A DNA stretch of 40,767 nucleotides from a virus: the IMG/VR virus record IMGVR_UViG_3300025164_001366, positions 1-40,767 of that record. One strand, written 5' to 3'. The position numbers and the translations under genes were made by a program. Below the pieces are notes generated by a model. The model did not search any database. It saw only the letters and a list, made by a program, of their open reading frames with translations, and was not told the DNA's origin. Shown one piece after another: positions 1,881 to 31,284 of the stretch (within the stretch, counting starts at the first letter, position 1; each line of letters starts with the position of its first letter).

Positions 1881-4526
1881 TCAAAAATCTGAAAAATTCG
1901 CGCCATTGGGCAAAATACTAAATGAGATATCCATAAATTCAAGTGAGGGCGTAGGTTTTAGCTGAATTTTCCCAGTCAAAGTATTAGGAGCATTAGCTGC
2001 CGGTGCCTTATCAAGAACAACATTAAAAGCTGTTAAACCTCTTTGATTTTGGATTTGAAGTAATATTGGTTCAACTTTTTGTAAGAATTGATCTCTAACC
2101 GTTGAATCGTTTGCTTCAAACAATAAAGTCTGAGAAGCGGCGGCGATAAGTCTTCTAACCTGTAATAAAAGTCTTCTAACATTTACTCTATCAAGAGCTG
2201 ATTGTTTAACCTGAAGAGTTTTTTGTCCAAATACTACAACACCTTGTTGAACGAAAGTCGCAATCGGATTAATCCTATCTTGATATAGTGTATCTCTATC
2301 AGTTTGTGATAATTTAATATCAGCTTTTTGAACTAATTCAGATACAGCACCTCTATTGTAACCAGCTGGAGCAAACCAAGGATAAGAAACATTATCAGTT
2401 AAAGCAATTGTTCTAACAATTTCCAATGTAGGAGCCACATAAACAAATTTATTAAAATTTGCATCATTAATCTGAACCCATGGCCAATATGTTGCTGCAT
2501 AATTTGAATCTATTCCTGTACCTTGAAGGTCAGAAACAGCTTCTGTAGCAGTTCCTTTTGCATCTGCAGTAGAAATTCTTGGAGAGTCAACAATATAAAG
2601 TGCATCAGCTCTATTTTCAATCATTGTTAAACCATATTTAACAACATCTTCATGATTATAAAAATCTACACCAGGCAAAGCAAATAAGTTAATATCAACT
2701 TCTTCCGAATTAGTCATTGTATCAATAGCTTCTTTTATAGCTACGACATTTTGTGCATCAATCGCAGAGGATGTAAAATCCGGACTTCTAAACTTATTCC
2801 AACCATCAAAGCCTCCAGCCGGAACTAAAGTGAATTTACGTTCAGATTTTGTATAACCACTTATTGATGAAAATGTTCCAACAATAAAATCAGTAGTAGA
2901 AGCGACACTTTCTAAGTGAAATCCTTTTACTGTAGTAGTTCCTGATGGAGTAGCTCCAATATAACTCCACAAATCATGTTCAATAGTTTTAACTGATTGA
3001 CTAATAGAAACTCTTCCAGCAGTGTGACCGGTATAACCGAGCTCAGACACGCCTAAATAAGTTTTAAATGTAGAATCTCCAGAAAAATACTGAGTCTTGT
3101 AATAAATATTAGGAGAAGTCGAACCACTTATTCCTGTATTTCTAAAAGTATAACCTTTAAAACCTGCAGGAACTGTATTTGTAGGGTGATTTTCAGCTAA
3201 AGTAAGTGTAACGTAATTAGACATTCTTGGATAATCCTCATCTAATGTTCCAATTGCTTTAGCAATATAATTTGGCTGAGTAGGATCAAGAGTTAATGCT
3301 CTAAATCTTTCTAAAATCGAGATACTTGCATCAGTATCTCCAAAAGCTCTAATTACAACATCAAATGTTTTTGTAACATCATCAATATTTGCAATTGAAA
3401 TTTTAATTTCTTCATTTGCACTATCACCATCAGATATTGAAGTAAACATAAATAAATCTCTAACAACACCACCTGCAACTTTAGAAACAATGTAAGGAGT
3501 TACTGGAGTTTGAAATTCAGTTGCATAATCTGTATAAATAGCATCTGTAGAATATGTAATGGCAGAACTTATTGATAGGATTTCACTTCTACTTGAGGCT
3601 TCTCTTATAAAGTGTGGATAAATACTTTCAACATATATACCAAAGTCAGTACTGTATTTTTTTGGATCTTTCCCAATAACTTTAACAATATAATCTTCTC
3701 TTGTTTCATCTAAAGAAACAGTAATAGCACTAGTAGTTAAAGCGGTTAAAGGTCCTGTTGTTCCGCTTAATGTAAAAGGGAATAAGGTACTTGTAATATT
3801 TGCAATTTTAATTGAGCTTTCATTATTCGCAAGGAATGTTGTACCTTCATCAGAAGATTTACTTCTAATAACACAAAGAGGAGAACCACTAAATGCTCCG
3901 CTGTTTTGTCTGGTATCAGCTGTTAGTGATAAAACTATTGTAGTTGCTGATGAAATATATGTTGTTGAACTATCTCCAGCTACCGTAAATCCAAATCCAC
4001 TAAACGAAGTTGTATTTAACGCATTTAACCACGCTGTTGTAGAAACAGAAGCACCACTAAAACCAACAACCGTATCATTTCCAACAGTTGCTGCTGAAAT
4101 AGTATTATCAGCCATTACAGTATCTGCAGAAGTTGTAATTGTCCATCCAGTAGAAAGTAATTGATTATTAATTGAAATAGTTACACCAGTTTGTGTAGAA
4201 GTTCCAGAAAAATACTCATATGTACTTCCTTGAATAATCCAAGCAGCAGAATTAGTAAAACCCTCTTTACCTAAAACCCTTGTTATTGTAAGTTCTTGAG
4301 ATTGTTTTAAAAACGAATTAGCAACGTATGGAAGTTGCAAATTAGTATCTGTTGTTCCAAATCTTGCCACATATTCATCTGTGCTTGAAATTTTTATAGG
4401 TTCAAAAGCCGGACCTTTTGTTGTTTCACCAACAAGACCGAGTCTTGTGATTCCTATTTGTGATGCGAATACAGAAAAATCCTGTTCTCTTGTGTATACC
4501 CCTGGGCTAACGAAGACTGTGGCCAT
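1881..4526 (-). CDS. Contractile tail sheath protein (T4 gp18-like)
   Basis: 881 aa. The N-terminus MATVFVSPGVYTREQDFS is the classic sheath opening: the 'PGVYxxExD' strand that links neighbouring subunits. Residues about 25-60 (GLVGETTKGPAFEPIKISS) are the conserved sheath continuation. The C-terminal third has the conserved sheath core: TYWPWVQINDANFNKFVYVAPT, then PWFAPAGYNRG, and INPIATFVQQGVVVFGQKTLQ with the RRLLLQVRRLI helix. It is larger than T4 gp18 (659 aa); the extra length is a Ser/Thr-rich, low-complexity middle (about residues 90-480), probably surface-exposed insertion domains. It forms the contracting outer tail tube. It follows the gp13/gp14/gp15-like genes on the same strand, as in T4-like neck-tail modules, and ends at a strong terminator. 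Confidence 0.97.
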   Translation of the reverse strand: MATVFVSPGVYTREQDFSVFASQIGITRLGLVGETTKGPAFEPIKISSTDEYVARFGTTDTNLQLPYVANSFLKQSQELTITRVLGKEGFTNSAAWIIQGSTYEYFSGTSTQTGVTISINNQLLSTGWTITTSADTVMADNTISAATVGNDTVVGFSGASVSTTAWLNALNTTSFSGFGFTVAGDSSTTYISSATTIVLSLTADTRQNSGAFSGSPLCVIRSKSSDEGTTFLANNESSIKIANITSTLFPFTLSGTTGPLTALTTSAITVSLDETREDYIVKVIGKDPKKYSTDFGIYVESIYPHFIREASSRSEILSISSAITYSTDAIYTDYATEFQTPVTPYIVSKVAGGVVRDLFMFTSISDGDSANEEIKISIANIDDVTKTFDVVIRAFGDTDASISILERFRALTLDPTQPNYIAKAIGTLDEDYPRMSNYVTLTLAENHPTNTVPAGFKGYTFRNTGISGSTSPNIYYKTQYFSGDSTFKTYLGVSELGYTGHTAGRVSISQSVKTIEHDLWSYIGATPSGTTTVKGFHLESVASTTDFIVGTFSSISGYTKSERKFTLVPAGGFDGWNKFRSPDFTSSAIDAQNVVAIKEAIDTMTNSEEVDINLFALPGVDFYNHEDVVKYGLTMIENRADALYIVDSPRISTADAKGTATEAVSDLQGTGIDSNYAATYWPWVQINDANFNKFVYVAPTLEIVRTIALTDNVSYPWFAPAGYNRGAVSELVQKADIKLSQTDRDTLYQDRINPIATFVQQGVVVFGQKTLQVKQSALDRVNVRRLLLQVRRLIAAASQTLLFEANDSTVRDQFLQKVEPILLQIQNQRGLTAFNVVLDKAPAANAPNTLTGKIQLKPTPSLEFMDISFSILPNGANFSDF

Positions 4527-4560
4527 GTTTTTTTATTTTTTAAATGTTATTTTTATTTAC

Positions 4561-4569
4561 AATAAATAG
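4561..4569 (-). promoter_or_regulatory. Candidate late-promoter element CTATTTATT upstream of sheath
   Basis: CTATTTATT in sense orientation about 35-43 nt before the sheath ATG. Similar (C/A)TATTTA(T/C/G) elements precede many other genes here, including gp15-like, prohead core and protease. Promoter function is inferred from recurrence and orientation only. Confidence 0.35.
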
Positions 4570-4586
4570 GAGAAAATTCTTAAAAC

Positions 4587-5297
4587 TCATCTCTCTGTTA
4601 TATCTATCTTAATTTTAGTTATTGTTGGTACTCTTTCAAAATTTATTGGGTCTACCAACTTGCCGAAAACAGTTAAAGGAAACATAATTTGAAATTTTCT
4701 ATCTGAGGCTATTTCATCAACTGTATTTTCTTCACTTGGGTCAGATAACATTAATGGAATATTATATCCGTTTATATTCATATAGCCTTGTCCATCAGAG
4801 AATCCATCCATAATCATTCTTTCATAAGAAACATTTGTATCTTGAATATAATGCGTTAAAAATCTTAGCTCATATTGCACATCTACTCTTGGGGGTTGTG
4901 GAATTTTATATAAATCATATCCTTTAAGTGTTCCATCAAAAATTGGAACTTTAACAAAAACAAATTTTTTCTTTTTAGGAATTGTTCTTTTAAGTGGATT
5001 TTGTCCGGGTTTGACAGAAGTTCTTTTTATTACCATAAAAGGCATATTTATTTCTTCTCCACTTTCATCTTTTAAAAACTTCCAGTTCATTTTAAATTCC
5101 GCCCATCTTTCTTGATTTAAATAAATCACCGGAACTTTAGCTAAAACATCTTCTGCATTAATAACAGAAATATTTAATGAATTTATATAATCAACAACAC
5201 CTTGGTCTATATCTTCTAAAAGAAGTTTTTTAGGTAAATAATTATTATTTTCAAAACTTTGATCGAGAAGATTGTTTATGTTACTTTGAATTGACAT
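4587..5297 (-). CDS. Tail completion / sheath terminator protein (T4 gp15-like)
   Basis: 236 aa. Regions resembling T4 gp15 are VPVIYLNQERWAEFKMNW (near residue 52), QYELRFLTHYIQDTNVSYERM (middle) and a C-terminal block RKFQIMFPLTVFGKLVDP. Proteins of this type form the hexameric ring that caps the finished tail and contacts the neck. The product fits its place between the neck genes (6265-8000) and the sheath gene. It is slightly shorter than T4 gp15 (272 aa). A CTATTTATT element lies 21-29 nt upstream (5318-5326). The assignment rests on pattern and gene order. Confidence 0.65.
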   Translation of the reverse strand: MSIQSNINNLLDQSFENNNYLPKKLLLEDIDQGVVDYINSLNISVINAEDVLAKVPVIYLNQERWAEFKMNWKFLKDESGEEINMPFMVIKRTSVKPGQNPLKRTIPKKKKFVFVKVPIFDGTLKGYDLYKIPQPPRVDVQYELRFLTHYIQDTNVSYERMIMDGFSDGQGYMNINGYNIPLMLSDPSEENTVDEIASDRKFQIMFPLTVFGKLVDPINFERVPTITKIKIDITER

Positions 5298-5417: not shown

Positions 5418-6101
5418 ATGAAAACAAATATTAATTTAATAAAATTATTTATAGACAGCGATATCATTAGACATTATGCTGTTTTTCTTAAATTAAAACA
5501 TATTCACTCTAATGGTAGAGTTTATAACTACTCACCCTATAAACTATCAAAACAAAGCGGATTAAGTAGAAATTCAATAATAAAATATATCAAATTCTTT
5601 AAAGATAATAACTGGATAAGAACCGAAGGGAAGGATATTATTTTCATTTCAACTGAAAAATTAAAAAAAGTTTATGATATCAAATTAAAACATGATATTA
5701 AAATAGAAAACAATAACACTTTATCTTTACTTACAAACTCTTTACGATATGAAGTATTAAAACATAAACAAAGTCAATTTAAGTACATTAATCAAATTAG
5801 GAAAGACCAAACTAATCCAACAGGAGCTAATGCTTTAAAACGCCATAAAAAAGCTATTAAAGTACCTCTGAAAACATTCGGTGAATTTTCTAATTATTTA
5901 AAAATTAGTGTAAAAAAATTGGCTTTGTTAATTAATAAATCAGGCTCAACAGTTAGTCGTTTGATTAAAATTATGAAAGCAACAGTAATCAGGGGCAAGA
6001 AAACTTTGGTATATTTTAAAAAGAATATAAATTTACCTTCAAATTTATACTGGCATAAAGGTTTTGTAGTTAAAGTTGATTGTAATTCATATATTTTTTA
6101 A
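5418..6101 (+). CDS. Winged-helix DNA-binding protein
   Basis: 227 aa, basic. An N-terminal helix-turn-helix is visible at about residues 40-75: YSPYKLSKQSGLSRNSIIKY followed by IKFFKDNNWIRTEGKDIIFIS, a typical winged-helix recognition helix and wing. A second HTH-like stretch is LKISVKKLALLINKSGSTVSR near residue 160. It resembles Bacteroidetes plasmid or phage replication/regulatory wHTH proteins but I cannot name a family. It is a lone plus-strand gene inserted between gp15-like and gp14-like genes, so it may be a recent insertion or a regulator with its own promoter. The 163 nt after it (6102-6264) hold no ORF or hairpin that I can support. Confidence 0.65.
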   Translation: MKTNINLIKLFIDSDIIRHYAVFLKLKHIHSNGRVYNYSPYKLSKQSGLSRNSIIKYIKFFKDNNWIRTEGKDIIFISTEKLKKVYDIKLKHDIKIENNNTLSLLTNSLRYEVLKHKQSQFKYINQIRKDQTNPTGANALKRHKKAIKVPLKTFGEFSNYLKISVKKLALLINKSGSTVSRLIKIMKATVIRGKKTLVYFKKNINLPSNLYWHKGFVVKVDCNSYIF

Positions 6102-11815: not shown

Positions 11816-12148
11816 ATGAAAAGTAAAAACATCACATCAGAAATCAAGGAAAACGTATTAACAGAAGTAATATCTGCTGTTGATATTATTGATGTTGATG
11901 TTAAAAATCCGAATGACGAAGATATTCAATTATATATAAAAACGAATAATCTTAATACTGTAAACCTTGAAAAGCTTTCTGAAATATGTAATAAATTTTC
12001 AAATAAAAAAGTAATTGTTAACTTTCAAATACCTGATGAAAAGTTACGAGATGGTAAAACTTTTAAAAATTTAGATACCGTTTGTATTTTTATTACTACG
12101 ACAGCTGCTGACTTTGAATTTGACCCATCATTGGTTTTTCCATCCTAA
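11816..12148 (+). CDS. Hypothetical protein (110 aa)
   Basis: Acidic, with a plausible alpha/beta pattern: VISAVDIIDVDVKNPNDEDI, then LEKLSEICNKFSNKKVIVNF. No family recognised. Its upstream sequence TCGTTTAAAACAGTATG resembles that before 17238 (TCGTTTAAAACACCATG), which may be a shared control element. Its last 53 nt overlap the convergent gene at 12096. Confidence 0.5.
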   Translation: MKSKNITSEIKENVLTEVISAVDIIDVDVKNPNDEDIQLYIKTNNLNTVNLEKLSEICNKFSNKKVIVNFQIPDEKLRDGKTFKNLDTVCIFITTTAADFEFDPSLVFPS

Positions 12149-12887
12149 ACCTTTTTTGTTCTCCGCCTTTAAATTGTACACTCACATCAATAGTGGGAAC
12201 GTCTGCTGTAACTCTTTTAGTCTTAACTACTTTACCGACTCCTAAGTTTTTATGTAAGAAATTATCTCCAACCTTATAATTTTTAGATTTATCATATAAT
12301 ACACCATGTCTTTCTATGGGTGCTTGTTTCTGGATTTTGCTATAATCAGTTACATCTATAATATTGTCTTTTTCAAATTCATTTTTAATTTCTAATTTAC
12401 CGACTTCTGTTTTTGTGACAAGTTTTATATCTCTGTTTTTAATGAATTCTTTTGCTTCTTTAAATAATGCATTATTATCTTCGAAAAATGAACTTCCAAA
12501 TCTTATAAGCTCAATTGTGTTATGATAAATATAAAGATACATATAGGAATAGCCTTTATCTATATCTCTTTCTTTACTGAAAGTTAAAACACTTCTAACT
12601 CCTTTATCGTTTAAGACAAATTTTCCCAATTTCATAATAATAAAATCAGTATATTCAAAATCTTTTAAAAAAACTTTTGTTAATTTATTATTTATTAATT
12701 CTTTAGCTTTTTGTAAAATCTCTATATCGCTAAATTTATTTTCTGGAATATTTGGTTTTATATTTTTAAATACAAGTTCAAAATATGAGTTAAACTGTTT
12801 TCCTTTGTTCGCTTCATCTATCTCTTGATAATTTTCTTTAAGAAGATTTTTAACAAAATTTCTTATATTTTTTTCCTGTGAATTCAT
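12096..12887 (-). CDS. Hypothetical protein with CarD/DUF3553-like C-terminal Tudor domain
   Basis: 263 aa. The N-terminus NIRNFVKNLLKENYQEIDE is the short amphipathic helix ending in L-K-E seen on several phage proteins here, and may be a prohead-protease cleavable tag. The C-terminal 60 residues, NYKVGDNFLHKNLGVGKVVK...VSVQFKGGEQKRFRM, resemble the small beta-barrel of CarD_TRCF/UvrD-tail Tudor domains ('G..V.H..fG.G.V'). The middle is of unknown type. It may be a virion-delivered DNA- or RNAP-binding protein, but that is speculative. Confidence 0.55.
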   Translation of the reverse strand: MNSQEKNIRNFVKNLLKENYQEIDEANKGKQFNSYFELVFKNIKPNIPENKFSDIEILQKAKELINNKLTKVFLKDFEYTDFIIMKLGKFVLNDKGVRSVLTFSKERDIDKGYSYMYLYIYHNTIELIRFGSSFFEDNNALFKEAKEFIKNRDIKLVTKTEVGKLEIKNEFEKDNIIDVTDYSKIQKQAPIERHGVLYDKSKNYKVGDNFLHKNLGVGKVVKTKRVTADVPTIDVSVQFKGGEQKRFRMEKPMMGQIQSQQLS

Positions 12888-12936: not shown

Positions 12937-12968
12937 TTTGCTTTTAGTTAAAACTTTTTATACATTTG
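12937..12968 (+). promoter_or_regulatory. Bacteroidetes-type promoter of the tRNA operon
   Basis: TTTG at 12937-12940, a 20-nt spacer, then TACATTTG at 12961-12968. This matches the -33/-7 consensus of the Bacteroidetes primary sigma factor. Transcription should begin near 12975 and run through leader ORF 1 and the tRNA genes. Confidence 0.8.
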
Positions 12969-13009
12969 TATCGTATTAATAAAAAAACATACTATTTAAT
13001 AGAGTAAAA

Positions 13010-13105
13010 ATGAAAAACATCACAACATACAACTCACTAAGACAATTATCTTTAGAACAACTGATAGAGGAAAAATCAGTATGGCCGGATAACGTGCGTT
13101 TATGA
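13010..13105 (+). CDS. Leader peptide 1 of the tRNA operon (31 aa)
   Basis: ATG 13010, TGA 13103-13105, begins MKNITTYNSLRQLSLEQ. Its codons 10-19 include CTA, AGA, TTA, TTA, CTG and ATA, and the last sense codon is TTA. The downstream phage tRNAs read TTA, AGA, CTA and ATA. It is followed 26 nt later by an intrinsic terminator. A GGCCGG within codons 25-27 (13083-13088) can pair with CCGGCT in the 5' arm of that terminator, which is the geometry of an attenuator. Expression is inferred from the strong promoter just upstream. Confidence 0.6.
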   Translation: MKNITTYNSLRQLSLEQLIEEKSVWPDNVRL

Positions 13106-13131
13106 AGTAAAAAATATAAATGTTCAAAAAA

Positions 13132-13158
13132 CCCCGGCTTGAAAAGTTGGGGTTTTTT
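13132..13158 (+). terminator. Attenuator-type terminator before the first tRNA group
   Basis: CCCCGGCT / AGTTGGGG stem (8 bp, two G-U) with loop TGAAA, followed by six T. It lies between leader ORF 1 and the first tRNA, 34 nt upstream of 13186. It would cut off the tRNAs unless antitermination occurs. Confidence 0.8.
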
Positions 13159-13185
13159 GTTTTTATGTAGTTCTTTGAAAAAAAT

Positions 13186-13266
13186 GCCTCTGTGGAGAAA
13201 TTGGAAAACTCATTTGGTTTAAGCCCAAACGCAAATAGCTTGCAGGTTCGACCCCTGTCAGGGGTA
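13186..13266 (+). tRNA. tRNA-Leu (anticodon TAA)
   Basis: Acceptor GCCTCTG/CAGGGGT with wobble pairs, D stem GAG/CTC, anticodon stem TTTGG/CCAAA around loop TTTAAGC, long variable arm of 12 nt, T stem GCAGG/CCTGT with TTCGACC loop, A73. A normal class II tRNA-Leu reading UUA, a very common codon in this AT-rich genome. No CCA is encoded. Confidence 0.9.
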
Positions 13267-13275
13267 CTATATAAT

Positions 13276-13358
13276 GGTTGGGTGTCAGAAATGGATATTG
13301 AAACAGTTTCCTAAACTGTGACGAAAGTCAATTGCAAGTTCGAATCTTGTCTCGACCA
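13276..13358 (+). tRNA. Class II tRNA with Arg anticodon CCT
   Basis: Acceptor GGTTGGG/CTCGACC, anticodon stem ACAGT/ACTGT with loop TTCCTAA (CCT), T stem GCAAG/CTTGT, discriminator A. The variable region is a 14-nt arm (GAC-GAAA-GTC-AATT), as in Ser/Leu tRNAs and unlike normal tRNA-Arg. The body looks like tRNA-Ser(GCT), whose anticodon loop differs only at position 34. The GGA in the D loop (A20), C35 and U36 are ArgRS identity bases, so arginine charging is possible. The actual amino acid is uncertain. Confidence 0.8.
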
Positions 13359-13375
13359 CTGTTGTAAAATAAAAT

Positions 13376-13457
13376 GATTGGGTGCCAGAATGGATATTGA
13401 AGCAGTTTTCTAAACTGTGGCGAAAGCCAATTGGAGGTTCGAATCCTCTCCCGATCA
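13376..13457 (+). tRNA. Class II tRNA with Arg anticodon TCT
   Basis: Acceptor GATTGGG/CCCGATC, anticodon stem GCAGT/ACTGT with loop TTTCTAA (TCT, reads AGA), T stem GGAGG/CCTCT, discriminator A. It has a 14-nt variable arm GGC-GAAA-GCC-AATT and is clearly a paralogue of the preceding CCT tRNA. AGA is an ordinary Arg codon in this phage: the gp13-like gene uses it at conserved Arg positions. Decoding as Arg is therefore expected despite the Ser-like body. Confidence 0.82.
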
Positions 13458-13479
13458 CAGAATAGTTCTTTTAAATAAT

Positions 13480-13559
13480 GCCGGAATGGTGGAATGTAGA
13501 CACAGCAGATTCAAAATCTGTCGCTGAAATGCGTGAAAGTTCAAATCTTTTTTCCGGTA
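13480..13559 (+). tRNA. tRNA-Leu (anticodon CAA)
   Basis: Acceptor GCCGGAA/TTCCGGT, anticodon stem GCAGA/TCTGT with loop TTCAAAA, variable arm CGC-TGAAAT-GCG-T, T stem GAAAG/CTTTT with TTCAAAT loop, A73. Class II tRNA-Leu reading UUG. The D-arm GGTGGAATGTAGACAC is Leu-like. Confidence 0.88.
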
Positions 13560-13564
13560 CAAAT

Positions 13565-13639
13565 AGTCAGGTAGCTCAGCGGTCAAGTAGCAGTTGTCTT
13601 ATACACAAAAGGTCGAGGGTTCAATCCCCTCTCTGACTA
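13565..13639 (+). tRNA. tRNA-Ile (anticodon TAT)
   Basis: Acceptor AGTCAGG/TCTGACT, D stem GCT/AGC, anticodon stem with TTGT/ACAA around loop CTTATAC (TAT, reads AUA), 5-nt variable loop AGGTC, T stem GAGGG/CCCTC with TTCAATC loop, A73. The outermost anticodon-stem pair is a G-A mismatch. Confidence 0.8.
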
Positions 13640-13662
13640 CAATAAATATAATAAACAATAAA

Positions 13663-13830
13663 ATGGGAAAATTAGAAAAGAAAAAACAAAGACTGCAGGA
13701 AAGACTTAAATTCTTACAAGATGAAATGACTTTAGAGTTGACTAAAAAAACGTCATCAACTAAAGAAATAAATCTTCCAGATTATCAAAGAAAAATTGCA
13801 GATTTGCAATCGCAATTGCAAAAAATGTAA
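13663..13830 (+). CDS. Small coiled-coil protein embedded in the tRNA cluster (55 aa)
   Basis: ATG 13663; a longer reading from 13594 would lie inside tRNA-Ile and is rejected. The protein MGKLEKKKQRLQERLKFLQD and onward is highly charged with heptad-like Leu spacing at both ends (KIADLQSQLQKM), suggesting a coiled coil. It ends 5 nt before tRNA-Leu(TAG). Function unknown. Confidence 0.6.
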   Translation: MGKLEKKKQRLQERLKFLQDEMTLELTKKTSSTKEINLPDYQRKIADLQSQLQKM

Positions 13831-13835
13831 TAAAT

Positions 13836-13918
13836 GCCCCTGTGACATATGCAAACTGGCACAGCTACAAGTTTTAGAAACTTGGTTTTTGCGGATTCGA
13901 CTTCCGCCAGGGGCACCA
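13836..13918 (+). tRNA. Atypical tRNA-Leu (anticodon TAG) with encoded CCA
   Basis: Acceptor GCCCCTG/CAGGGGC followed by A and an encoded CCA; anticodon stem CAAGT/ACTTG around TTTAGAA (TAG, reads CUA); T stem GCGGA/TCCGC with TTCGACT loop. It is odd in that the variable region is only 6 nt (Leu tRNAs normally have a long arm) and the D region is about 25 nt, too long. It is the only tRNA here with a genomic CCA, which suggests a different origin. Confidence 0.68.
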
Positions 13919-14007: not shown

Positions 14008-14079
14008 AGCCCCGTCGTCTAATGGTTAGGACGTGAATTTTTCGAATTCAAAATGCGGTTTCGACTACCGTCGGGGTTA
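14008..14079 (+). tRNA. tRNA-Glu (anticodon TTC)
   Basis: Acceptor AGCCCCG/CGGGGTT, D stem GTCT/GGAC, anticodon stem TGAAT/ATTCA around loop TTTTCGA, T stem GCGGT/ACCGT with TTCGACT loop, A73. The D arm CGTCTAATGGTTAGGACG is the classic Glu/Gln form. Confidence 0.88.
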
Positions 14080-14133
14080 CAAGTCAATTAAAAACAACGA
14101 GTTTATAAAAATTAGTTAATATTTAAAAGAAAA

Positions 14134-14205: not shown

Positions 14206-14234
14206 AGAGAAAAATTTAATACTTACGCGAAAAA

Positions 14235-14266
14235 CCCGGGACACTTAAAAATGTCTCGGGTTTTTT
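14235..14266 (+). terminator. Attenuator-type terminator before the tRNA-Gln genes
   Basis: CCCGGGACA / TGTCTCGGG stem (9 bp, one G-U) with an 8-nt loop, followed by six T. It lies 10 nt before tRNA-Gln at 14276. Confidence 0.85.
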
Positions 14267-14275
14267 GTTTTATAT

Positions 14276-14347
14276 TTTCACTTCGTCTAACTGGCAGGAC
14301 ACAACATTTTGACTGTTGTAATTGGAGTTCAAATCTCTGAGTGAAAA
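14276..14347 (+). tRNA. tRNA-Gln (anticodon TTG), copy 1
   Basis: Acceptor TTTCACT/AGTGAAA (perfect), D stem GTCT/GGAC, anticodon stem CAACA/TGTTG around TTTTGAC (TTG), T stem TGGAG/CTCTG with TTCAAAT loop, A73. Starts 10 nt after the attenuator terminator. Confidence 0.88.
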
Positions 14348-14352
14348 CATAT

Positions 14353-14423
14353 TGCTCTGTCGTCTAATGCAGGATGCCACCCTTTGAAGGTGCGAGATAA
14401 TAGTTCGAGTCTATTTGGAGCAA
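14353..14423 (+). tRNA. tRNA-Gln (anticodon TTG), copy 2
   Basis: Acceptor TGCTCTG/TGGAGCA, D stem GTCT/GGAT, anticodon stem CACC/GGTG around CTTTGAA (TTG), T stem AATAG/CTATT with TTCGAGT loop, A73. Five nt after copy 1, but the sequence is clearly different, so not a recent duplication. Confidence 0.82.
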
Positions 14424-14472
14424 CATTTTTTTAAAAACAATTTAGTTACTCATCCGTTTAATATAAAATAGT

Positions 14473-14776: not shown

Positions 14777-15577
14777 ATGGAAGAATCAACAAAATACTCA
14801 AGAACTTTACATTTTCCAATTTCGAAAGGAACAACTTCGGATGACCGGATATTGTCAGAAGGATACTTAGAGCCAATTTCTAAAATGAAATTAATTGCTT
14901 CTGAAAAATTAGATGGACAGAATGATTGTTTTAAAAAAGAGGGAGTATTTGCAAGGTCGCATACGGCACCAAGTGCACATCTATGGGATAAACCTATGTG
15001 GGATAGATGGGAGCTTATAAAAAATGATTTAAAAGGTCTTGAAATATTTGGAGAGAATATGTATGGAATACATTCTATAGGATATAAAAAACTTGAATCT
15101 TTTTTTTATATGTTTGCCGTAAGAGAAAATGGTGTATGGCTCTCTTGGGAAGAAGTTAAGTTTTATGCCGGCATGTTGGATTTTCCTACGGTTCCGGTAA
15201 TAGAAATTAAGAAACCGTTATCAGAATTTATATCAGATAAAAAATCAGAAGATGACTCTTTAAGAGAATGGTTAAAATCATTTCTTGGTATGAATTGGGA
15301 AGAATATACTGACACTCATGGCATGCTTGGAGGTTATGACCCAGAAAATGATAAACCGGCTTGTGAGGGATTTGTTATAAGAAACGTAGAATCATTTAAA
15401 ACAAATGACGGTATTATTAAAACACAATCAAATGAATTTAATAACATATTCAAACTTGTTAGGGAAAAACACGTTAAAACAGATGAGCATTGGACTAAAA
15501 CCTGGAAGCCAGCCACTTTGATTAATAGTGAAAAATATAAATGGTATGGTTATGAAAACAATTATAAAACAAAATAA
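14777..15577 (+). CDS. RNA ligase (T4 Rnl2-like nucleotidyltransferase family)
   Basis: 266 aa. Motif I is SEKLDGQND with the likely AMP-accepting Lys at K44. Motif III-like is LEIFGENMYGIHSI, motif IV EGFVIRN, and motif V-like KLVREKHVK. The Trp/Tyr-rich C-terminus (WTKTWKPATLI, KYKWYGYE) is common in phage Rnl2-type ligases. The enzyme would seal 3'-OH/5'-phosphate RNA nicks using ATP. It lies 354 nt downstream of the tRNA genes, a setting that suggests repair of cleaved tRNAs, as with T4 ligase against host anticodon nucleases. It overlaps the next gene by one base (TAATG). Confidence 0.85.
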   Translation: MEESTKYSRTLHFPISKGTTSDDRILSEGYLEPISKMKLIASEKLDGQNDCFKKEGVFARSHTAPSAHLWDKPMWDRWELIKNDLKGLEIFGENMYGIHSIGYKKLESFFYMFAVRENGVWLSWEEVKFYAGMLDFPTVPVIEIKKPLSEFISDKKSEDDSLREWLKSFLGMNWEEYTDTHGMLGGYDPENDKPACEGFVIRNVESFKTNDGIIKTQSNEFNNIFKLVREKHVKTDEHWTKTWKPATLINSEKYKWYGYENNYKTK

Positions 15578-16286: not shown

Positions 16287-17198
16287 ATGTATAAAAGAAA
16301 TTGTCCACAATGTCATAAAGAATTAATTCATTCATCTGAAAAAAATTGCAACAGAGCAATTAAGGCAAATAGAGCTTGTAGAACATGTTCAAAAAGAAAA
16401 CATGATATTGATTTATTTAAAAATTTAAATAGAAATTGTCCTAATTGTGATAATATTATAGTTTATTCACGATTTTCTGATAAAAGAGTAGCTATTAATA
16501 ATAAAAGTTTATGTAAAAAATGTTCGATTAATGGCGGTAAATTTAAAAAAGAACACAAGTTAAATGATATATATAATAACAGTGAAAATAATCTATCTAA
16601 ATTATTAGAAGAAACATTTTTAAGTTTTTATTGGCTTGGATTTATAATAGCTGATGGTTCATTAAATAAAAATAAATTCGAATTATGTTTAGCGAAAAAA
16701 GATTTAAATCACTTGCAAAAATTTGCTAAATTTATTAATTTTAATAAAGAAATAAAATTTAGAAATAAATCACAATCATATAGAATATCATTTTCAAACA
16801 GAATATCAATTCCTGAAATACAAGGAAAATATAATTTAAAAGATAGAAAAACTTATAATCCTATAAATTTCAAACGCATTTCTAAATATAATACTGAATT
16901 ATTATTATGTTTAATAATAGGAATAATAGATGGAGATGGATGTATATCTAAAAATGGTTCAAAAAATTCTAATAGAATTTCTATAGTTTCTCACAAAAAT
17001 TGGAAAAAATTTTACATTAAAATTCTAAAAAAAACAAAATTATATAATGATTTTTTTATAAAAGGTGTAAAAAAAACAAATATAATAACTATTAATTTAT
17101 ATAGAAGAAATAAAATATTATTATTAAAAGACATTATCTCAAAATTTAACCTACCTTGTTTAGAAAGAAAATGGAATAAAATTTCAACAAATTTATAA
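16287..17198 (+). CDS. LAGLIDADG homing endonuclease with zinc fingers
   Basis: 303 aa. The two LAGLIDADG helices are FYWLGFIIADGSL (about residue 112) and LCLIIGIIDGDGCI (about residue 213), each ending in the catalytic Asp. This is the two-motif monomeric arrangement. The N-terminus has Cys pairs CPQC...CRTC and CPNC...CKKC, likely zinc-binding modules. Very AT-rich codon use. It is free-standing between small accessory genes; the target it protects or invades is not apparent. An ATATTTATT element lies just upstream. Confidence 0.88.
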   Translation: MYKRNCPQCHKELIHSSEKNCNRAIKANRACRTCSKRKHDIDLFKNLNRNCPNCDNIIVYSRFSDKRVAINNKSLCKKCSINGGKFKKEHKLNDIYNNSENNLSKLLEETFLSFYWLGFIIADGSLNKNKFELCLAKKDLNHLQKFAKFINFNKEIKFRNKSQSYRISFSNRISIPEIQGKYNLKDRKTYNPINFKRISKYNTELLLCLIIGIIDGDGCISKNGSKNSNRISIVSHKNWKKFYIKILKKTKLYNDFFIKGVKKTNIITINLYRRNKILLLKDIISKFNLPCLERKWNKISTNL

Positions 17199-18891: not shown

Positions 18892-19743
18892 ATGTATATT
18901 AAAGAATTTGAAGAATTAGAAATAGAACTACCTAATAGTTGCCGACTTAGTGATTGGACTAAAAAATTAGGTTATTGTCCAGAATTAAATACACCAATTA
19001 AAGTTCATTGGGCATTACTAAAAACAACAAGATTTAGAACTTTAAAATTAACATTAAAATGTGATGATTGCGATGCGGTTCATAATAGAAGAATACGTGA
19101 TTTAGATTCAAAAAAAACCATTCACTATTGTAATAAATGTTTTAATAAAGGTAAAAGAAATGGTATGTATGGAGTTCCTCCTAATGAAAATTTTAAATTA
19201 GCAGCAAAAAAACTTCTTGAGGAAAAAGGAAATCCATTTACATGGGAAACATCGAAAGAAAAAATAAAAAAAGCAAATGGCTGGGCTAAAATAGCAATAC
19301 TTAATACTGGCAAAAAAAGAACACAAGAAACAAAAGATAAGTTAAGCAAAGCAACATTATTATCTTATAAAGAAGGAAGGCAAAAACCAGGAAAAAGATG
19401 GGGTAAAATATTTACAAAACAATATAAAGAAATTGATTATCAAAGTTCTTATGAATTGAAATTTTTGTTATATGTTGAAAGTTTTAATTTATTAAATTTA
19501 ATAGAACGTGGTCCAATAATAAACTATAATGATGCAAATGGAAAAACACATTCTTATTTTTCTGATTTTACAATAAAAAATAGTAATATTGTTTTTGAGA
19601 TAAAATCTACATATATTTGGGAAAATAATTTAGAAATAAATTTATTAAAAAAAGAAGCCGCAGAAAAAGAATATGATTATATTTTAGTAATGGATAATAG
19701 ATTTAAAAATGTGAAAAAAATACTTGAAAATTACATACTATGA
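18892..19743 (+). CDS. PD-(D/E)XK homing endonuclease (NUMOD/zinc-type)
   Basis: 283 aa. The N-terminus has a zinc-like Cys pattern CDDCDAVH...CNKCFNKGKR. The middle is basic with a GKKRTQETKDKLSKATL stretch typical of NUMOD3-like DNA-binding modules. The C-terminus holds a PD-(D/E)XK core: YQSSYELKFLLYVESFN, then HSYFSDFTIKNSNIVFEIKS with the D and E-x-K residues. It is related to the C-terminal domains at 463-1737 and 33566-35350. It overlaps the NMN adenylyltransferase-like gene by 4 nt, so the two may be co-translated. Confidence 0.78.
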   Translation: MYIKEFEELEIELPNSCRLSDWTKKLGYCPELNTPIKVHWALLKTTRFRTLKLTLKCDDCDAVHNRRIRDLDSKKTIHYCNKCFNKGKRNGMYGVPPNENFKLAAKKLLEEKGNPFTWETSKEKIKKANGWAKIAILNTGKKRTQETKDKLSKATLLSYKEGRQKPGKRWGKIFTKQYKEIDYQSSYELKFLLYVESFNLLNLIERGPIINYNDANGKTHSYFSDFTIKNSNIVFEIKSTYIWENNLEINLLKKEAAEKEYDYILVMDNRFKNVKKILENYIL

Positions 19744-24602: not shown

Positions 24603-25997
24603 TTATTCTTCACTATTTTTAACTATTCCAGCAAGTCTTTTCATTCTTATCATCTCATCACTTTCGAAAAGCGTTTTAGAGTTTGAAGGTTTTATTACTG
24701 CCGGATTTACAGATTTTAATTTTGCAACAGATGGAGTTTTTGCTGATTTTGAAACTTTCATTTCGTTAAGGAAATTGTTATAGAGTTTTTTTGCCTCTTC
24801 GATAGTTTCTACACTATCAAATTCCTCAGCGATTTTCATTTTCTCATCATTTGTAAGACCACCGTTAGTGAATAGCTTGTTGGCATAAGCCAATTTTGCG
24901 TTGAAAATCTGTACTTCGTTTATTTGTTTTCTCAAAACAATGAAAGAGTCTTTATATTCTTTAATTGTTTGTTTTAAACTTTCGTTTTCCTGACTTAGCC
25001 CGTCGAATTTCGACACATATTGAGCTTTTATTTTTTTAATACTTTCATTAATTTCATTTCTTTGTTCAACTCCTTGTTTTGGAAGTTTACCAAGTGTATT
25101 TGTATGCTTTAGGTTATGACCAACACCGTGAATTTCTTCTACTGATGTATTATCTTCTTCAACATCTTCATCAACTATTTCTAATTCATTAAACATTTCC
25201 ATTACAGAATCATCATTTAAATCAGACATATCCTCTTCTTCTAATTCGTACTCTACCATTTCTTCATCTAATTCACAATCATCTTCTACTTCATAAACAA
25301 CTTCATCCATTTCACCAAATTCTTCATCTAATTCATATTCTTCTTCTTGAACAGGTGTTTGAATTTCTGGAGCTGGAGCTTCAGGAGCAGGTGTTTCTTC
25401 TGGAGTAATTTCTGATTCAGATTCATCATCTACAATAGAAACATTTCCTTCACTATCTCCTTGTTCAGAAGATTCTTCTGATGAAATAGCATCAATTTTA
25501 GCATCCATATCTTTAAGCATTTGAGAAATACTTTCTAAAGACACAGGTTCTTCTGTTGGTGTTTCATCAACTGGTGCAGTTGCATCAGGAGTTGGAGTCG
25601 GAGCTTCTGCAGGTGTACCAGCATTTGGCAAAGTTGCATCTTCCTCATTTAGACCTTCGATTTCAAAGATATCGCTCATATTTTCTTCGTTATTTATTGT
25701 TTCTTCTGAATTATCATCAGATATTTCATTTTCTATTTCTGTTTCAGAAGAGTTCTCAATTTCACTTGTTTCACCTTCTGGCATTTTTATAGTAAGTTCA
25801 GCACCTGCTGGAATTTCTAAATTCATTCCTTCGTTTAAAGAACTATTTTCTAATTCTTTAAGAGCTTCATTCGTGATTTGTTTAATTTTTGGCGCCATCT
25901 CTTCTTCAAGAGCTTTTCTTGCTTTTTCTGTTGCAAACTTTTCTATATCTCGAACTTCGAGTATTGCTTGCTGTATTAAACTTTTTTTTATGCTCAT
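24603..25997 (-). CDS. Prohead core scaffolding protein (T4 gp22-like)
   Basis: 464 aa. The N-terminus MSIKKSLIQQAILEVRDIEK and a first helical region resemble gp22-type core proteins. The middle (about residues 75-290) is extremely acidic, Glu/Asp/Pro/Ser-rich and low in complexity. The C-terminal third is a coiled-coil-like region (LSQENESLKQTIKEYKDSF) and ends SDEMIRMKRLAGIVKNSEE. It is longer than T4 gp22 (269 aa) because of the acidic middle. It acts as internal scaffold, later degraded by the prohead protease. Located between protease and capsid genes. I-L-E near residue 14 is a candidate cleavage site. Confidence 0.87.
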   Translation of the reverse strand: MSIKKSLIQQAILEVRDIEKFATEKARKALEEEMAPKIKQITNEALKELENSSLNEGMNLEIPAGAELTIKMPEGETSEIENSSETEIENEISDDNSEETINNEENMSDIFEIEGLNEEDATLPNAGTPAEAPTPTPDATAPVDETPTEEPVSLESISQMLKDMDAKIDAISSEESSEQGDSEGNVSIVDDESESEITPEETPAPEAPAPEIQTPVQEEEYELDEEFGEMDEVVYEVEDDCELDEEMVEYELEEEDMSDLNDDSVMEMFNELEIVDEDVEEDNTSVEEIHGVGHNLKHTNTLGKLPKQGVEQRNEINESIKKIKAQYVSKFDGLSQENESLKQTIKEYKDSFIVLRKQINEVQIFNAKLAYANKLFTNGGLTNDEKMKIAEEFDSVETIEEAKKLYNNFLNEMKVSKSAKTPSVAKLKSVNPAVIKPSNSKTLFESDEMIRMKRLAGIVKNSEE

Positions 25998-28667: not shown

Positions 28668-28700
28668 TTGCTATAAATATGAATTGTTTTATTATATTTG
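28667..28700 (+). promoter_or_regulatory. Bacteroidetes-type promoter of the dnaE operon
   Basis: TTTG at 28667-28670, 22-nt spacer, TATATTTG at 28693-28700. It fixes the dnaE start at 28717: the upstream in-frame ATG at 28684 would lie within the promoter. It overlaps the start of the divergent gene. Confidence 0.78.
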
Positions 28701-28716
28701 TAAAAAACAAAATATA

Positions 28717-30201
28717 ATGGAAAGATGTAGTTGTAAAAATGATGGATGTTTACATAGAAAACCTATGGTACACTTGCATTTACATAGTTCGTATAGCTTA
28801 CTCGATGGTTCCGCGAAGATAGACGATTACGTAAGTTTAGCGAAGGATTACCATCATCCTGCTATAACTTTAATTGACCACGGTCATGCATCTGGTACAT
28901 TTGAATTTTATAATAAATGTAAAGCTGCTGGAATTAAGCCGATAATTGGAATGGAAGCTTATCTGAATGATGAAATGGATAAACATGAAGAAAAATCCTA
29001 TGAGGGGAAAGATACTCATCAATCAATTATTATAATGAATAAAGAAGGGTTTGTTAATTTAAATAAATTAACTTATCGTTCTTTCACAGAAGGGTATTAT
29101 CGTAGGGGCAGAATAACAACAGAATGGCTTATTGAGAATAAGTCCGGACTTTTGATTACGAGCAGTTGTATGGCCAGTAAAATGGCAAGGTTAATAGAAG
29201 AAGGCAAGGAACAAGAAGCAGAAGAAAGAATAAAACTTTTAATGCGAGAATTTGGAAACAATTTTGTGGCAGAATTACAATTTAATGAAATCCCTCAACA
29301 AAAAAAATATAATCATTTTATTTTAAGAATGATTAAAAAATATTCATTAACACCAATACTTACAGGTGATGTTCACTATTCGAGTCCTGAAAATAATCGT
29401 TTACAGGATGTGATTATTTCCATTAATCAACATAAGTCTGTAGATGACCCTACAGCATTTAAACTTCAAGCACGACATCTGTATTATTCTAATAGAGATG
29501 ATTTTTATAAAATGAATAAAGAATTTGGATATAATTATCCGGATAAATTTATTGAAGAATGTTTAGATAACACTTTAAAAGTTGCTGATAAATGTAATTT
29601 TGAGTTTGAAACGGATGTAGAGAAATTTCCAAAATACGAGCCAACACCGGATGTTATTGAGTATTTTAAAGAAACAGGAACTAAGGAAATAATAACAAAA
29701 CTTGCACATGCAAAATTAAAACAAAAATTAAACATTTATAAAAAAAATGGTTTAGTAAAAATTGATGATGAAGTTATTCAAAAATATAAGGACAGGCTTG
29801 ATTACGAACTAAAAGTAATTGACGATAAAAAAGTGTCTGATTATTTTATGGTTGTTTGGGAATTAATTAAGTTTTGTAAGGAAAATGATATAGCCACAGG
29901 ACCTGGAAGAGGATGTTTTTTGCCAGGAAGTAGAGTAAAAATGTCTAATGGATTATATTCTTCTATAGAAATAATAGATATAGGAGAAGAAGTGATAGAT
30001 GCTTATGGAAATAAGCAAACAGTAATAGATGTTTTGTCTTATGACATAGAAGAAGATATTGTTGAATTAGAATTTGAAAACAAAATAAAAATAAGATGCA
30101 CATTAGACCATGAGTTTCTAACAAGTAATAGAAGTTGGGTTAAAGCAAATGATTTAACTAATGAAGATGAAATTATGGAAGTAGATTATTTACCGACTTA
30201 G
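28717..30201 (+). CDS. dnaE: DNA polymerase III alpha subunit, N-terminal part fused to split-intein N half
   Basis: 494 aa. Residues 1-399 are the N-extein: a PHP domain (VHLHLHSSYSLLDG, LIDHGHASGTFEFYNKC, GIKPIIGMEAYL) and the beginning of the palm, up to ATGPGRG. Residue 400 starts the intein: CFLPGSRVKMSNGLYSS, block A with Cys1, then block B IRCTLDHEFLTS with the TxxH motif, ending EVDYLPT and a stop (95 intein residues, 29914-30198). The stop occurs where natural DnaE split inteins end (compare 'VDNLPN'). The insertion point is within the strictly conserved PGRG|SA motif of Pol III. The second half lies at 31285-33561. Splicing would give a 1122-residue polymerase, about normal for DnaE. 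Confidence 0.95.
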   Translation: MERCSCKNDGCLHRKPMVHLHLHSSYSLLDGSAKIDDYVSLAKDYHHPAITLIDHGHASGTFEFYNKCKAAGIKPIIGMEAYLNDEMDKHEEKSYEGKDTHQSIIIMNKEGFVNLNKLTYRSFTEGYYRRGRITTEWLIENKSGLLITSSCMASKMARLIEEGKEQEAEERIKLLMREFGNNFVAELQFNEIPQQKKYNHFILRMIKKYSLTPILTGDVHYSSPENNRLQDVIISINQHKSVDDPTAFKLQARHLYYSNRDDFYKMNKEFGYNYPDKFIEECLDNTLKVADKCNFEFETDVEKFPKYEPTPDVIEYFKETGTKEIITKLAHAKLKQKLNIYKKNGLVKIDDEVIQKYKDRLDYELKVIDDKKVSDYFMVVWELIKFCKENDIATGPGRGCFLPGSRVKMSNGLYSSIEIIDIGEEVIDAYGNKQTVIDVLSYDIEEDIVELEFENKIKIRCTLDHEFLTSNRSWVKANDLTNEDEIMEVDYLPT

Positions 30202-30245
30202 TCCAATAAGGATTTTTTTTGACTATTTACAGTAAATATAAAGTC

Positions 30246-31280
30246 ATGAAAAAAGAAATAACAAAAGAACAAAAAGAAATATTAAATGTCATTATTAATA
30301 AAAATGGATTTTTAACAAAAAATGAAATATTAAAATTTTCCAAAGAATTTAATATTAACTTAAAATTATTTAGAAAATTATTAAAAGAAAGTAAAATTCC
30401 ATTTAAAAATAGAGATTTAGAAAATTTATTAAATGCCTATGATATAAAGTCTATAAATAACAGAATAGAATTAAGTGATTTTATTGCTTTAGGAGAATGG
30501 AAAATAGAAGCGTTTAAAAGTTCCAAAATGAAAATAACTTTTTGTTGTGAAGCTTGTAATAAAAAAAGTGAATTAGCATGTAGAAATATTATAAAAAGAG
30601 ATTATTTTTCACTCGAACCAATTTGTAATAAATGCATAAATAAAAAAGTAACATCATCTCTTAATTGGTTAAAAAATACTTCTGTTGCACAAAAAATATG
30701 TAAAAATAGACCAGAATTCAAAGAAAATCAAAGCAAAAAAATGATAGAAGTTTGGAAAAAAGATGGTTATAAAGAAAATCAGAGTAATAAAATGTTGGAA
30801 AAATGGCAAGATGAAAATTATAGACAAAATATTTTGGATGCTGTTTTTGAAAAATATGGAGTTTATAGTGTTATGCAAAATGAAAAAATTTTTTCAAAAT
30901 CACAAAAAAATAGCTTTAAATTTAAAGAATATATAATGCCAAGTGGAAAAATTATAAAACTGCAAGGGTATGAAAATAAGGCTTTAGATATTTTATTAAA
31001 AGAATTTAAAGAAGAAGATTTGATAATTGGCAATAAAAACATACAAAATAAAATAGGAAAAATATTTTATACAGACATAGATAACATTGTAAGAAGATAT
31101 TTTCCAGATATATACATTATCTCAATAAATAAAATAATTGAAGTAAAATCCACTTGGATATATAATAAATGTAAAATTAATAACGATTTTAAGAAACAAG
31201 AATGTTTGGATAGAGGATTTAATTTTGATTTTATGATTTTCCTACACAAAATGACACTTGAATATGTAAAAACATTATAA
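30246..31280 (+). CDS. Free-standing PD-(D/E)XK homing endonuclease between split-intein halves
   Basis: 344 aa from the ATG at 30246. It has its own start and stop and is not in frame with either intein half. An N-terminal helical region is followed by zinc-like Cys pairs (CCEACNKK...CNKC), short repeats with AVFEKYGVYSVMQNEKIFSK as in the 463-1737 and 33566-35350 proteins, and a C-terminal nuclease core: KLQGYENKALDILLKEFKEE, then IDNIVRRYFPDIYIISINKI with IEVKSTWIYN (D, E-x-K). The arrangement matches the published 'fractured gene' design in which a homing endonuclease gene separates the two halves of a split intein. It ends 4 nt before the intein C half start. Function in intein mobility is inferred. 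Confidence 0.85.
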   Translation: MKKEITKEQKEILNVIINKNGFLTKNEILKFSKEFNINLKLFRKLLKESKIPFKNRDLENLLNAYDIKSINNRIELSDFIALGEWKIEAFKSSKMKITFCCEACNKKSELACRNIIKRDYFSLEPICNKCINKKVTSSLNWLKNTSVAQKICKNRPEFKENQSKKMIEVWKKDGYKENQSNKMLEKWQDENYRQNILDAVFEKYGVYSVMQNEKIFSKSQKNSFKFKEYIMPSGKIIKLQGYENKALDILLKEFKEEDLIIGNKNIQNKIGKIFYTDIDNIVRRYFPDIYIISINKIIEVKSTWIYNKCKINNDFKKQECLDRGFNFDFMIFLHKMTLEYVKTL

Positions 31281-31284
31281 TAAT

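Follow-up and report, generated by a model that had tools for sequence, protein, structure and literature searches.

What is the function of a 31-codon open reading frame (ORF) and an intrinsic terminator that stand before a group of phage tRNA genes? We investigated this question in IMG/VR virus record IMGVR_UViG_3300025164_001366, of which one strand of 40,767 bases was analyzed (the window). The first-pass annotation had read the ORF as a leader with codons cognate to the following tRNAs, coupled to an antiterminator and a terminator. This reading was supported by a related locus, which keeps all three elements, and by more than 100 non-redundant units, spread over many unrelated phages, whose leaders follow their own tRNAs. 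In the absence of transcript, ribosome or mutant data, and judging from sequence alone, we regard ribosome-mediated transcription attenuation as very probably the best explanation, by which a phage tRNA operon would respond to a shortage of its own tRNAs.

The tRNA array and its two units

Genes for a major head protein and a tail sheath mark the window as a myovirus-type fragment, in which the tRNA array lies between a minus-strand gene (12096–12887) and an RNA ligase gene (14777–15577). The features of the array are summarized in Table 1. The promoter that had been placed 40 nt upstream of leader 1 was identified as a Bacteroidetes-type element, separated by 41 nt from the ATG at 13010. The tRNA-Leu (UAG) gene was missed by both ARAGORN and Rfam. 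A PHROG search with the 55-aa ORF inside the array returned no match, and leader 1 had no protein family match in PHROGs, Pfam or NCBIfam.

The second leader–terminator unit noted in the first-pass annotation was also found, comprising leader 2 with its six Gln codons, a terminator and two tRNA-Gln genes. No TAnnTTTG element was present upstream of leader 2, so polymerase may enter the Gln unit by reading through from unit 1; we infer that such read-through would also explain the Gln codons in leader 1. Simple pairing gave no clear antiterminator for leader 2.

Table 1. Features of the tRNA array and of the region before it, in window coordinates.
Feature	Position	Strand	Basis or remark
Promoter, Bacteroidetes-type TTTG-N20-TACATTTG	12937–12968	+	Sequence; TAnnTTTG at 12961–12968
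Leader ORF 1, 31 aa, MKNITTYNSLRQLSLEQLIEEKSVWPDNVRL	13010–13105	+	Sequence; orthologue in L185
Regulatory codon run, codons 10–21 of leader 1	13037–13072	+	11 of 12 codons read by the phage's tRNAs
Antiterminator 5' arm GGCCGG	13083–13088	+	Predicted pairing; kept in L185 in another frame
Hairpin nested within the antiterminator (13096–13104 with 13115–13123)	13096–13123	+	Fold of 13079–13140, predicted only
Intrinsic terminator 1; 5' arm holds CCGGCT (13134–13139), the antiterminator 3' arm	13125–13159	+	
tRNA-Leu (UAA)	13186–13267	+	
tRNA-Arg (CCU)	13276–13359	+	
tRNA-Arg (UCU)	13376–13458	+	
tRNA-Leu (CAA)	13480–13560	+	
tRNA-Ile (UAU)	13565–13640	+	
55-aa ORF, lysine- and glutamine-rich, inside the array	13663–13827		Position also kept in L185 (about 1185–1350)
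tRNA-Leu (UAG)	13835–13915	+	Stems visible in sequence; syntenic L185 gene called as tRNA-Leu (UAG)
tRNA-Glu (UUC)	14008–14080	+	
Leader ORF 2, MKTIFVQQQQQQTLSKSSGIAMS, six Gln codons	14134–14205	+	L185 orthologue with seven Gln
Terminator of unit 2	14227–14268	+	
tRNA-Gln (UUG), first copy	14276–14348	+	
tRNA-Gln (UUG), second copy	14353–14424	+	

Codons, terminator and predicted antiterminator of leader 1

Leader 1 contains the CTA, AGA, ATA and three TTA codons that had been reported for this 31-aa ORF (13010–13105), one TTA being the last codon, and tRNAs reading them (Leu-UAA, Arg-UCU, Ile-UAU and Leu-UAG) were found downstream as claimed. The earlier list of cognate codons was correct but incomplete; it overlooked two CAA codons and GAA, GAG and GAA, which fit the downstream Gln and Glu tRNAs. 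Codons 10–21 read CTA AGA CAA TTA TCT TTA GAA CAA CTG ATA GAG GAA, and 11 of these 12 are read by the nine tRNAs of the array, against a mean of 2.8 per 12. No run of this kind occurred among 30-codon stretches of 43 long window ORFs. Apart from Ser, the amino acids of this core are the five of the array (Leu, Arg, Ile, Glu and Gln). The whole of leader 1 showed only a weak excess over the first-operon tRNAs alone (7 of 30, mean 3.8, P 0.08). The codon signal of leader 1 resides in the core run and not in the whole leader.

The terminator consists of 16 pairs (−20.8 kcal/mol). The pairing of GGCCGG with CCGGCT, which the first-pass annotation had put forward, is the predicted fold before the terminator 3' arm exists (−13.3), and the pairing at this locus alone gave P 0.06 against shuffles. 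Since the terminator is favored over the antiterminator at equilibrium, antitermination must be kinetic and would have to occur as RNA polymerase moves. GGCCGG lies 15–20 nt before the stop codon of leader 1, so a terminating ribosome would cover most of the arm, as had been proposed, but not all of it. The regulatory codons lie upstream of the arm, which is the placement required if a stalled ribosome is to leave the arm free. The locus meets the sequence criteria for a ribosome-mediated transcription attenuator: a promoter and a short ORF, cognate codons, a terminator, a mutually exclusive antiterminator (predicted, not probed) and suitable codon placement.

A syntenic related locus (L185/L467) encodes an RNA ligase 62% identical to that of the window and has a closely similar array order with both leaders, MKNVNTYTASQRQLSLEQLILSCKAGLCSFIK (leader 1) and MKTNFVQQQQQQQTLNKGSGIAMS (leader 2). 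The core RQLSLEQLI of leader 1 is identical in L185, and the C-terminus differs. GGCCGG is kept at the nucleotide level in L185 while a 5-nt indel shifts its frame (WPD vs KAG), which indicates constraint at this position on the RNA rather than on the peptide. Relatives with the terminator but without the leader ORF had been named as a possible refutation; L185 keeps the leader, GGCCGG and the terminator. It was the only orthologue of leader 1 found, and a diverged one: a pattern search with RQLSLEQLI matched only the window group and L185, and a second conserved protein of the window (24603–25997), used as query, returned only the L185 contig. The window array showed only short tRNA matches to named phages at the nucleotide level.

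In more distant RNA-ligase relatives the layout is kept, and the tRNAs and peptides differ. MKNTTLTYCLLTGADLGTNI precedes Asp, Ala, Tyr, Leu, Leu, Leu, Cys and Thr tRNAs in L008, MKTTYTYQPETKQPKGG... precedes Pro, Pro, Gln, Gln, Gln, Tyr, Glu and Lys tRNAs in L475, and, as a weaker match, MEKVYTYNENTSINPMGYMGAPAADD... precedes Pro, Asp, Pro and Asp tRNAs in L004. Two further RNA-ligase relatives (L006 and L007) had no tRNAs in the stretch examined. The tRNA region of L008 also contains a tmRNA gene (3349–3733).

Leader–terminator–tRNA units in other phages

We searched IMG/VR with a codon-blind pattern (ATGAA, gap, GG[GC]TTTTTT, gap, GTTCRA) and a detector blind to tRNA identity, which required a terminator no more than 75 nt from a tRNA and an ORF of 10–45 codons ending near the terminator. 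The detector yielded 142 unique peptides, of which 137 were viral and 111 non-redundant, and 103 non-redundant leaders were taken into the tests. The pattern is biased to ATGAA starts and G-rich terminators and therefore gives no prevalence. Examples are MKNASLLSLSLLLLS before seven tRNA-Leu genes in a 494-kb phage, MNRISSLSSSSSSFGG before four tRNA-Ser genes, MKNLIHIQPQPQQHPQ before Pro, His and Gln tRNAs, and MKKMSNILVLCLCVLVLTSTAG before Cys, Cys, Val, Val and Leu tRNAs. Five other leaders had no Pfam or NCBIfam match above cut-off, and no leader was found in the stretches of Sphingomonas phage PAU, Lak-A1 and LR756511; the RaK2 stretch examined was without annotated tRNA.

Of the leader residues, a fraction of 0.322 was cognate to one of the first five tRNAs, compared with 0.161 after permutation (sd 0.009, z 17; 103 leaders), and 95% of the amino acids of these tRNAs were present in the leader, compared with 63% after permutation. 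The cognate excess was observed in frame 0 only, with none in the other frames or on the antisense strand. Codon class tracked the isoacceptor for Arg (P 0.005), Leu (P 0.002) and Ile (P 0.008, Fisher); no significant match was obtained for Ser. At loci with several units, the match to the tRNAs of the leader's own operon was 0.555 and that to sibling operons 0.129, and the own operon was preferred by 45 of 49 leaders (P 6e-9). This preference within single loci rules out genome-wide codon bias as the source of the match.

Pairing between the leader end and the terminator 5' arm averaged −10.2, compared with −7.1 in dinucleotide shuffles, and reached P 0.05 or better in 45% of cases. Cognate codons lay 6–38 nt upstream of the antiterminator arm, with a peak at 18–20 nt (0.66 vs 0.20) and a value of 0.05 at the arm itself. 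Such spacing would be expected if the arm is left free by a ribosome stalled at these codons and covered by one that completes the leader. A TAnnTTTG element was located within 70 nt upstream of 39 of the 103 leaders (4.4 in shuffles). In 13 of these 39 (L082, L090, L247, L519 and others) the element ends 3–7 nt before the ATG, and the leader mRNA would then be nearly leaderless. Certain tRNA sets recur across phages (L519, L524, L108 and L137): Pro/Gln/His/Glu/Leu/Arg; Ala/Lys/Ile/Gly/Asp/Thr/Val; Tyr/Ser/Asn/Trp/Phe/Cys; and Cys/Val/Leu.

Matching units were found in the cultured Cellulophaga phages phi4:1, phi17:2, phi38:1 and phi10:1, with three leader–terminator–tRNA units each in phi4:1 and phi38:1. 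In phi4:1, MKIQRLHLQELEQPIISGGTGV precedes Pro, Glu, Gln, His, Leu, Leu and Arg tRNAs (group 1), and MKTNYCTYNNSNWSFSYDTG... precedes Tyr, Ser, Asn, Trp and Phe tRNAs (group 3). The leader of group 2, which bears the annotation hypothetical gp075, is an ORF that starts with GTG or TTG and ends in VQLTKTGITVIDKTKGARAYLGDTVIG; behind it lie Ala, Lys, Ile, Gly, Met, Asp, Thr, Val and Arg tRNAs. The phi38:1 leaders MKTIMNIATDIRTKGVKLLGRSRVL, MKTNMTYNNFSWYSNCSFSSYNVERLYLS and MNVTLLHQEPLEQLRLPSRVPYYGIDELS, the first two of which were read by eye from the sequence, precede the same three kinds of tRNA group.

In genomes of bacteria and archaea the same pattern matched few tRNA loci, with five leader-like ORFs in 120, and the system looks mostly viral within the sample scanned. 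A Candidatus Shapirobacteria contig (L277) carries the leader MKLIVSQSWWCNSSLLAGDVLIS on the minus strand (about 5930–6003), followed by a terminator and tRNA-Trp. Of the minus-strand ORFs after this tRNA (2205–4848), two resemble Trp-tRNA synthetase and one is transporter-like. With protein names assigned by eye, this locus looks like a cellular Trp attenuator operon that includes a tRNA gene.

Proposed mechanism, alternatives and relation to known systems

The ORF, the codon match, the terminator, the complementarity, the conservation and the geometry over many phages are read from the DNA itself, and we infer from them the translation, stalling, switch, feedback and role in infection of the leader 1 system. 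RNA polymerase would start near 12975, and a ribosome behind it would translate leader 1. With ample tRNAs for CUA, AGA, CAA, UUA, GAA and AUA, the ribosome would reach the stop codon and cover GGCCGG, the terminator would form and the tRNA genes would not be transcribed. If any of these tRNAs were short, the ribosome would stall within codons 10–21 and, on the assumption that it covers about 15 nt ahead of its P site, leave GGCCGG free to capture CCGGCT before the terminator 3' arm is made, and the polymerase would continue into the tRNA genes. The new tRNAs would relieve the stall and switch the operon off, so that tRNA supply would be under negative feedback. Before the two tRNA-Gln genes, leader 2 would make the same test again, for Gln only.

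The same attenuator could instead sense amino-acid starvation through uncharged tRNA, as in the trp and his operons, and not the loss of a tRNA species. Any uncharged cognate tRNA would stall the ribosome too, and classical leaders work in this way; however, the product regulated here is tRNA, which cannot cure an amino-acid shortage, the codons track the isoacceptor class and not the amino acid only, and single leaders, for example in phi38:1 and phi4:1, can cover about ten unrelated amino acids. We consider this alternative unlikely, though it keeps some weight. The signal is probably the shortage of particular tRNA isoacceptors and not a general starvation for leucine or arginine.

A second alternative is that the leader encodes some ordinary small protein, or arose as an ORF by chance, in front of an ordinary terminator, with a codon match that mirrors the amino-acid and codon usage of the phage, which the tRNAs follow too. 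This AT-rich phage uses UUA, AGA and AUA anyway, and the whole-leader match to the first operon described above is weak. Against this, the comparison of own and sibling operons inside single phages (45/49) ruled out genome-wide codon bias, and the permutation and frame controls, the position of the cognate codons relative to the antiterminator arm, the retention of GGCCGG across the frame change and the lack of a protein family match all disfavor it. The leader as an ordinary protein was rejected, and little credence remains for this explanation as a whole. That the terminator mainly stops upstream transcription, with the leader incidental and the tRNAs expressed from a promoter of their own behind it, is hardly tenable: a terminator between units could insulate and a promoter-like consensus match lies at 13248–13275 (within the first tRNA gene and its spacer), but a Bacteroidetes-type promoter directly precedes leader 1, promoter elements precede leaders in many phages, and the preceding gene lies on the opposite strand, so no same-strand transcript needs to be stopped.

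Attenuation in response to tRNA shortage resembles the control of biosynthetic and synthetase operons by trpL, hisL, thrL, ilvL and pheM-pheST, which are ribosome-attenuated, in that regulatory codons lie in a short leader ORF, antiterminator and intrinsic terminator exclude each other, and structural genes follow. The phage units differ in that they control tRNA genes and not enzymes, their leaders combine up to about ten amino acids with codons that follow tRNA isoacceptors, and feedback probably acts through the amount of tRNA. The theory of ribosome-mediated transcription attenuation has been described (PMC1183508). In T-box attenuators, too, the state of a tRNA chooses between terminator and antiterminator, but the T-box RNA binds uncharged tRNA directly, without translation. 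A T-box was ruled out here, because an Rfam gathering scan of the window and four loci gave only tRNA and tmRNA. Work on the tRNA operon of phage T4 (Goldfarb and Daniel 1980, 1981), insofar as it is cited in PMC9693318 and PMC12482277, also describes tRNA genes in subclusters under transcriptional control.

For more than 50 years it has been unclear why phages have tRNA genes (PMC10264068). Phage tRNAs have been described as evading host anticodon nucleases (PMC10264068, PMC11555353) by replacing host tRNAs destroyed in infection, and such loss would stall ribosomes at the corresponding codons. However, these papers concern tRNA sequence and presence, and the text of PMC10264068 makes no mention of attenuation, leader or terminator. 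The class of mechanism is a classical one. No description of its acting on viral tRNA genes, where leaders would serve as composite many-tRNA sensors, was found in the phage-tRNA and attenuation literature searched, which left most subscription journals out of scope, and an earlier description is not excluded. Rfam, Pfam, NCBIfam and PHROGs yielded no model for the leader–terminator–tRNA system.

If the attenuators work as the sequences suggest, phage tRNA genes would be demand-driven and not constitutive supplements, and each leader would name the tRNAs whose joint shortage the phage anticipates. Predictions from the codon-compensation and anti-nuclease hypotheses could then be tested directly in cultured phages whose hosts are known (Cellulophaga phi38:1 and phi4:1), leader-peptide attenuation would be extended to genes for viral tRNAs, and natural sensors of tRNA isoacceptors would be readily available. 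It is quite possible, though for now conjectural, that these units form a widespread and repeatedly evolved phage surveillance system, in which composite leaders monitor many isoacceptors, switch on matching tRNA operons when host tRNAs are destroyed (e.g., by anticodon-nuclease defences) and shut them off by feedback once supply is restored.

Elsewhere in the window, a DNA polymerase III alpha gene is fractured into two parts (28684–33561) that carry the halves of a split intein. In the first ORF, GPGRG is followed by an intein-like N half, with which the ORF ends; the second opens with the C half of an intein, whose final HN precedes SASGCLLSY. A DUF7487 ORF (30219–31280) lies between the two parts. 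Together with ORFs at 463–1758, 18892–19743 and 33566–35350, it is one of four window ORFs with DUF7487 matches (one below cut-off), which are possibly mobile endonuclease-type genes, and a LAGLIDADG-like ORF is located at 16287–17198.
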